A stretch of 64,000 bases of DNA from Sphingomonadaceae bacterium (GTDB lineage Bacteria; Pseudomonadota; Alphaproteobacteria; Sphingomonadales; Sphingomonadaceae): the NCBI GenBank assembly GCA_025359445.1, contig JANYGB010000037.1:1-64000 (forward strand), written 5' to 3'. Under the pieces are notes generated by a model, which made no database searches, was not told where the DNA came from, and was given only the letters and a program-made list of their open reading frames with translations. Position 1 is the stretch's first letter. The number at the start of each line of letters is the position of its first letter. This document shows positions 22,601-23,311 of the stretch, piece after piece. A program made the translations under genes and the position numbers.

Positions 22601-23311
22601 CAAGTGGGGGAGGAGTTGCGCGAACGGGGCAGTCAGAAAAGTCGGTTCGCGCAGAGGCGCAGAGGCGCAAAGAGGTTCTGCATCGGGCGAAGCCCCTTCA
22701 AAATTCGAGGTTGCAGCAAAGGGCATACCTGAGATTGATTCAAAAGCCTGCGGCGCAGCGCAACCCCTTTGCGCCTCTGCGCCTCTGCGCGAATCTAAAT
22801 TCACTACATTGCTTTCCACTCCAATGGTGAACTCCGCATCCAGATCCGCCGGCGGGACCAGCACCAGCTGCACCCCCTCGCTATGCGCCCCGAGCATCGC
22901 CAGCGAAATGTCGCACGCCCCCTTGTCCTGCCAGCCGCCATCAAGCGTACCCATCCGCCCGGCCGAGATCAGCGCGCAGAGCCGGCCATAGGCGGCGCGG
23001 GTTGTGGGGTAGGCGAGGAAGGTCAGCCCTTCGGTGATTTCGATCCGGGCCCCGATCACCGGGCGCAGTTTGAGCGCCTGCGCTTCGCCATGCAGCCGCA
23101 CCACTCCGGCCATGGTGTTGGCATCGGCAATCCCGATCGCGTCATAACCCAGGGCATAAGCCTGCGTGACGAGGTCAACCGCATCCGAGGCCCCGCGCAG
23201 GAACGAGAAGCACGTCGCCAGCCCCAGCTCGACGAACGCTGCGCGCGGCGGCGCATTGGTCGCTTCATCGGTAATACGGCGGCGTTCGGGGGTCAGGGCG
23301 GCTTCGGGCAT
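19640..23311 (-). CDS. dnaE2: Error-prone DNA polymerase DnaE2 (with two in-frame repeat insertions)
   Basis: PHP domain [57 protein letters not shown]; C-terminus [15 protein letters not shown]; start [12 protein letters not shown] at 23309-23311. Confidence 0.96.
   Translation of the reverse strand: [1223 protein letters not shown]
20466..20613. repeat. Palindromic element (family B) inside dnaE2, codons ~900-948
   Basis: Perfect 21-bp inverted repeat TTGGTTCGCGCAGAGACCGCA (20511-20531) / 20557-20577, nested in outer imperfect arms. Confidence 0.85.
22646..22793. repeat. Palindromic element (family B) inside dnaE2, codons ~173-222
   Basis: 32-bp arms TTCGCGCAGAGGCGCAGAGGCGCAAAGAGGTT (22646-22677) and inverted copy (22762-22793), 31/32 matching. 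Confidence 0.9.

Follow-up and report, generated by a model that had tools for sequence, protein, structure and literature searches.

The window, by which we mean the whole 64,000-nucleotide stretch of sphingomonad DNA that we analysed, carries an error-prone DNA polymerase gene next to a mutasome cassette, and palindromic repeats are found inside the coding sequence of two of these genes. The features are listed below; family A is the repeat family to which both dnaE2 insertions belong.

19640-23311, minus strand: dnaE2, error-prone DNA polymerase, open reading frame of 1223 aa from ATG
20470-20606, minus strand: second family-A insertion, nested, at site 2 of dnaE2
22646-22793, minus strand: family-A palindromic element at site 1 of dnaE2, 148 bp, in frame
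23329-23343, plus strand: GTTC-N7-GTTC box, 17 nt upstream of the dnaE2 start codon
24391-26130, minus strand: imuB-like gene of the mutasome cassette, open reading frame of 579 aa, named from its position and its relatives
25419-25544, minus strand: palindromic insert in imuB, in frame, unrelated to family A, with arms at 25419-25446 and 25517-25544
25964-26731, minus strand: imuA-like gene, with a weak match to ImuA in NCBIfam, under the cut-off
26738-26752: second GTTC-N7-GTTC box, upstream of the imuA-like gene

We take the box in front of dnaE2 to be the LexA-type box of alphaproteobacteria; across the window the motif matches 7 times against 1.7 expected. The imuB-like product had no match in NCBIfam, and an Rfam search of the window returned tRNAs only.

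The dnaE2 product matched NF004225, the NCBIfam model of error-prone DNA polymerase, from end to end at 1376 bits (cut-off 939), in agreement with the first-pass annotation, which had described an open frame in a polymerase of full length. The predicted fold of residues 1-1050 is nearest to that of Pol III alpha. Gene decay had been named as an argument against a genuine insertion, and results pointed the other way: dN was 0.085 and dS 0.555 against a close relative (G137), dN/dS was about 0.15 (range 0.1-0.2 against relatives) and the catalytic motifs are kept, so that dnaE2, as judged from these substitution rates, is under purifying selection and not decayed. We also searched the genome of the window (G000, 71 contigs, rated 99.67% complete) for DnaE1, the replicative Pol III alpha; it was not found, dnaE2 being the sole match, and this absence is most likely an assembly gap.

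The site-1 element has two arms of 32 nt (22646-22677 and 22762-22793), complementary at 31 of 32 positions (97%), around a core of 84 nt, exactly as first annotated. Its arm motif matches four times in the window against 0.07 expected from shuffles, and its single strand folds into a strong hairpin (-90.4 kcal/mol, z = -7.1). About 50 added residues had been claimed. The insertion itself was supported by the alignment of orthologs, as the loop measures 60 aa in this DnaE2 and mostly 15-24 aa in palindrome-free orthologs, so repeat-free homologs of equal length, which would have spoken against it, did not appear; the size, however, has to be lowered to a net gain of about 40-45 aa. The target-site duplication that the same alignment was expected to reveal did not emerge, since between filled and unfilled dnaE2 alleles no clear duplication could be recognized in flanks that are too diverged.

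At site 2, an outer pair of arms (20477-20500 and 20583-20606) encloses an inner palindrome (20511-20541 and 20547-20577) in a nearly concentric arrangement. The palindrome in imuB has further dispersed copies in the genome. The first-pass annotation described one insertion and missed the one at site 2 (20470-20606), the one in imuB and the repeated filling of the same loops that we describe below.

Counting copies in the genome of the window (2.96 Mb in 71 contigs), another check that had been proposed, gave about 16 loci of family A, with elements of about 115-265 bp. Their ends read GGTTCGCGCAGAGG..CCTCTGCGCGAACC, their arms are built of 8-mers such as GCGCAGAG, and their core is asymmetric with two conserved motifs, GCGCCGCAGGC and the GGCTTCGCC hairpin. 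In this genome dnaE2 is the one coding sequence in which we found family A. The remaining copies appear extragenic, although one of them (L043, 2030-2182) seems to lie at an ORF terminus and to provide the final 21 codons of a 384-aa frame, together with its stop. We considered a coding role for these other copies and rejected it: among 10 ORFs spanning an element, no Pfam domain extended across it, and the only match, DUF1905, begins past the element. One extragenic copy of 264 bp (L037, 1904-2167, on contig C63) looks nested, with an inner palindrome recognized by eye, so that nesting would not be limited to copies inside genes. Among 12 extragenic copies, lengths were multiples of 3 in 4, and 25 of 72 frames were open; given these mixed lengths and frames, a random family-A insertion would be expected to keep a reading frame in about 1 of 8 cases.

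Matches to family A were present in 19 of the 37 genomes sampled from the genus and in none of 24 genomes from other genera of the order at E 0.001. Public Novosphingobium records share dnaE2 inserts with some of the sampled genomes, which makes a Novosphingobium-type sphingomonad the probable source of the window.

We aligned DnaE2 from 70 loci of the genus, 58 of which are close orthologs, in a sample that leans to relatives of the query. Site 1 is the loop between SNVV and TAPF, site 2 the loop between WDxTLE and ALRLGLRQ, and palindromes were scored as inverted repeats against shuffles. Results showed a palindrome at one site at least in 25 of the 58 orthologs (17 at site 1, 18 at site 2, 10 at both), leaving more than half of them palindrome-free. 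The median loop at site 1 was 50 aa with a palindrome against 21 aa without; at site 2, where palindrome-free loops are mostly 7-15 aa, the medians were 68.5 and 11 aa. At least seven palindrome families with different arms, some of them defined by eye, occupy the two loops, and can be told apart by the peptides that they encode:

Family A: sites 1 and 2 of dnaE2 in the genome of the window
Family B: PLAGGxRGG..PTPDPSRKREG
Family C: LRQAQGER / LSLSKP
Family D: RRPGPDPG..PVPGQARDD
Family E: SLEEGQGGG..PPPLKRRG
Family F: HPAGERGAR..AAAGWAD
Family G: PCEGRDLV..
H type: PPLQGEV..PPLAGED

Five families were examined in their host genomes (A, B, C, D and the one in ImuB), and each proved to be a dispersed repeat. 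Occupancy of the loops changes between close relatives, G137 having D and C where the genome of the window has A and A; within G137, the D element was found in dnaE2 only. A tree from which the loops had been left out requires a minimum of 15 state changes per site, a number that counts changes and not gains and rests in part on families defined by eye. Family A lies in both orientations at both sites, and nearly concentric nested palindromes are frequent at both. All filled alleles that we saw are in uninterrupted ORFs, in a set of loci that was collected by way of long ORFs and may under-represent broken alleles. In one genome (G026) the frame seemed to be broken at site 2, but the contig ends there, inside a repeat.

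To look beyond the genus, we also compared 80 named DnaE2 loci. Palindromic inserts in DnaE2 were found in Erythrobacter (L147, L167) and Altererythrobacter (L172), and at site 2 in a record of a Roseomonas genomospecies (L190). In L172 and L190, the ImuB loop that is filled in the window is occupied by other palindromes, whereas most of the remaining aligned proteins have a short loop there. In Brevundimonas sp. AAP58 (L214), DnaE2 has its palindromic insert (IPAKAGTQ..GFRRDE) outside the two common loops, at a third position close to residue 124 of the L103 protein. DnaE1, taken as a control from 29 of the same genomes, had no family-A insert. In about 4 of the 29, one of its loops holds a palindrome-like insert of C type (AELVEAL..FDKLRLSG), indicating that tolerance is not exclusive to DnaE2. 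It lies as follows:

L236, L239, L242 and L254 (genomes G026, G093, G140 and G115, respectively): C-like insert in DnaE1, near residue 317 of the L237 protein

To see where the inserts fall in the protein, we modelled residues 1-1050 of DnaE2 with AlphaFold2 from 49 sequences (mean pLDDT 82). The inserts, at residues 183-218 and 919-947, have a pLDDT below 50, a value that may partly reflect the few relatives aligned there, and each lies between neighbouring beta strands; from this we predict that the insert peptides form disordered loops. At the nucleotide level, 13 of 31 arm pairs were changed on both sides among 14 aligned copies. There were 40 covarying cells against 14.5 in shuffles, a statistic inflated by relatedness and with nearly all rows from dnaE2, and the signal was lost on sliding the register. 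Considering that the two arms encode different peptides, this covariation would point to a constraint at the DNA or RNA level or to a copying process, such as the spread of subfamilies or hairpin-templated correction.

The first-pass annotation likened the element to the Rickettsia palindromic elements (RPEs) of Ogata, Claverie and colleagues, which are short dispersed palindromes lying in frame in open genes and adding tens of residues (PMC3733652). The likeness holds for a dispersed palindrome, with about 16 loci, that sits in frame inside an otherwise intact, constrained gene and is absent from many orthologs; it does not appear to extend to membership. The host is a sphingomonad and the sequence is another one. 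A comparison of the DnaE2 protein with NCBIfam, thus at the protein level, returned polymerase models only and none for RPEs. RPEs place the same family in many unrelated genes, whereas in the genome of the window the coding copies of family A are confined to dnaE2 and nearly all copies are extragenic; moreover, unrelated families reuse the same loops of one protein. Family A works like RPEs yet does not appear to belong to them.

Another parallel is offered by the intragenic REPs surveyed by Di Nocera and colleagues in 2013, many of which lie in genes of DNA synthesis and repair, DnaE2 being named among them (PMC3733652). This survey is the only direct precedent that we found in the literature. 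The CGTC and GTAG REPs are likewise dispersed palindromes, often paired, some of them inside genes of repair and replication, and our family D starts with CGTC. In contrast to their palindrome of 20-40 bp with a tag at one end, family A lacks both tags and has a conserved core and longer arms, which are made of 8-mers. A common insertion site was reported only for recB in two Xanthomonas species (PMC3733652), whereas DnaE2 has two, each used by several families. Family A also resembles MITEs in being short, non-coding, dispersed and nested, with terminal inverted repeats; neither a parental transposase, in a search for Y1 transposases, nor a clear target-site duplication, in the diverged dnaE2 flanks, was found. 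We rejected mobilisation by a RAYT, the transposase that goes with GTAG REPs, as the Y1 transposase (PF01797) is absent from the genome of the window and from several relatives bearing the element; CGTC REPs are described as having no transposase of their own (PMC3733652). As far as the literature shows, what is new here is a family outside both tagged REP superfamilies, the use by several unrelated families of three sites, two in DnaE2 and one in ImuB, the turnover estimate, the frequent nesting and the arm covariation.

Taken together, we consider it likely that selfish palindromic elements can persist within coding sequence only at flexible loops that accommodate them. Family A would be a non-coding palindrome that spreads by some route in Novosphingobium-type sphingomonads, and its insertions elsewhere in coding DNA would be removed by selection. 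The two DnaE2 loops would tolerate extra peptide, so that the rare insertions that keep the frame could persist there, to be replaced or lost later. In favour of tolerance, the extragenic copies have no more than 25 of their 72 frames open, whereas every filled dnaE2 allele that we saw is open. The insert peptide probably adds no more than a passive, disordered loop to a functional polymerase that is induced by damage. Tolerance alone leaves the choice of DnaE2 over many other genes unaccounted for, and the arm covariation in the aligned copies suggests that the elements do not simply reside there but are also subject to some constraint or copying process.

Alternatively, the sites might be insertion hot spots, in which the DNA sequence or an existing hairpin would direct the elements to the loops, with targeting counting for more than tolerance. 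The nearly concentric nesting that is common at both sites, and that recurs in an extragenic copy, looks as if hairpin tips attracted insertion, and REP dimers inside other palindromes have been reported (PMC3733652). Since families with different arms share the sites, palindrome-free sites are filled too and both sites coincide with predicted loops, we regard such targeting as rather unlikely to be the main cause. Recruitment for a function, with peptide loops or mRNA hairpins selected because they tune the activity, partner binding or expression of DnaE2 and ImuB, could be read from the recurrence of inserts in two proteins of one mutasome and from their frequency in 25 of 58 orthologs. It seems to us distinctly unlikely in view of the rapid turnover, which brings unrelated families, peptides and orientations to one site (A and A here, D and C in G137), and of the majority of orthologs that do without a palindrome. 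A draft genome in 71 contigs, where repeats can mislead assembly, invites the suspicion of an artefact or a decaying gene; we give it almost no credence, as similar filled loops recur across many independent assemblies and the low dN/dS, the kept catalytic motifs and the full-length family match argue against decay. It is also very improbable, in our opinion, that the DnaE2 and ImuB loops are preferred because the mutasome has a hand in producing or spreading these palindromes, as it might by switching templates at hairpins in damage-induced synthesis; if true, this coupling of element and polymerase would explain the many in-frame palindromes in genes of replication and repair.

In conclusion, in-frame palindromes were known before, mostly as scattered cases, and DnaE2 provides a replicated natural experiment, with the same two loops carrying unrelated repeats or none within the genus and beyond. 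These loops allow direct tests of the way in which selfish DNA turns into protein sequence, of the loops that can accommodate it and of whether 40-90 extra residues alter the behaviour of a damage-induced polymerase. The dnaE2 gene thus preserves a natural record of the places in proteins that can accommodate mobile DNA.
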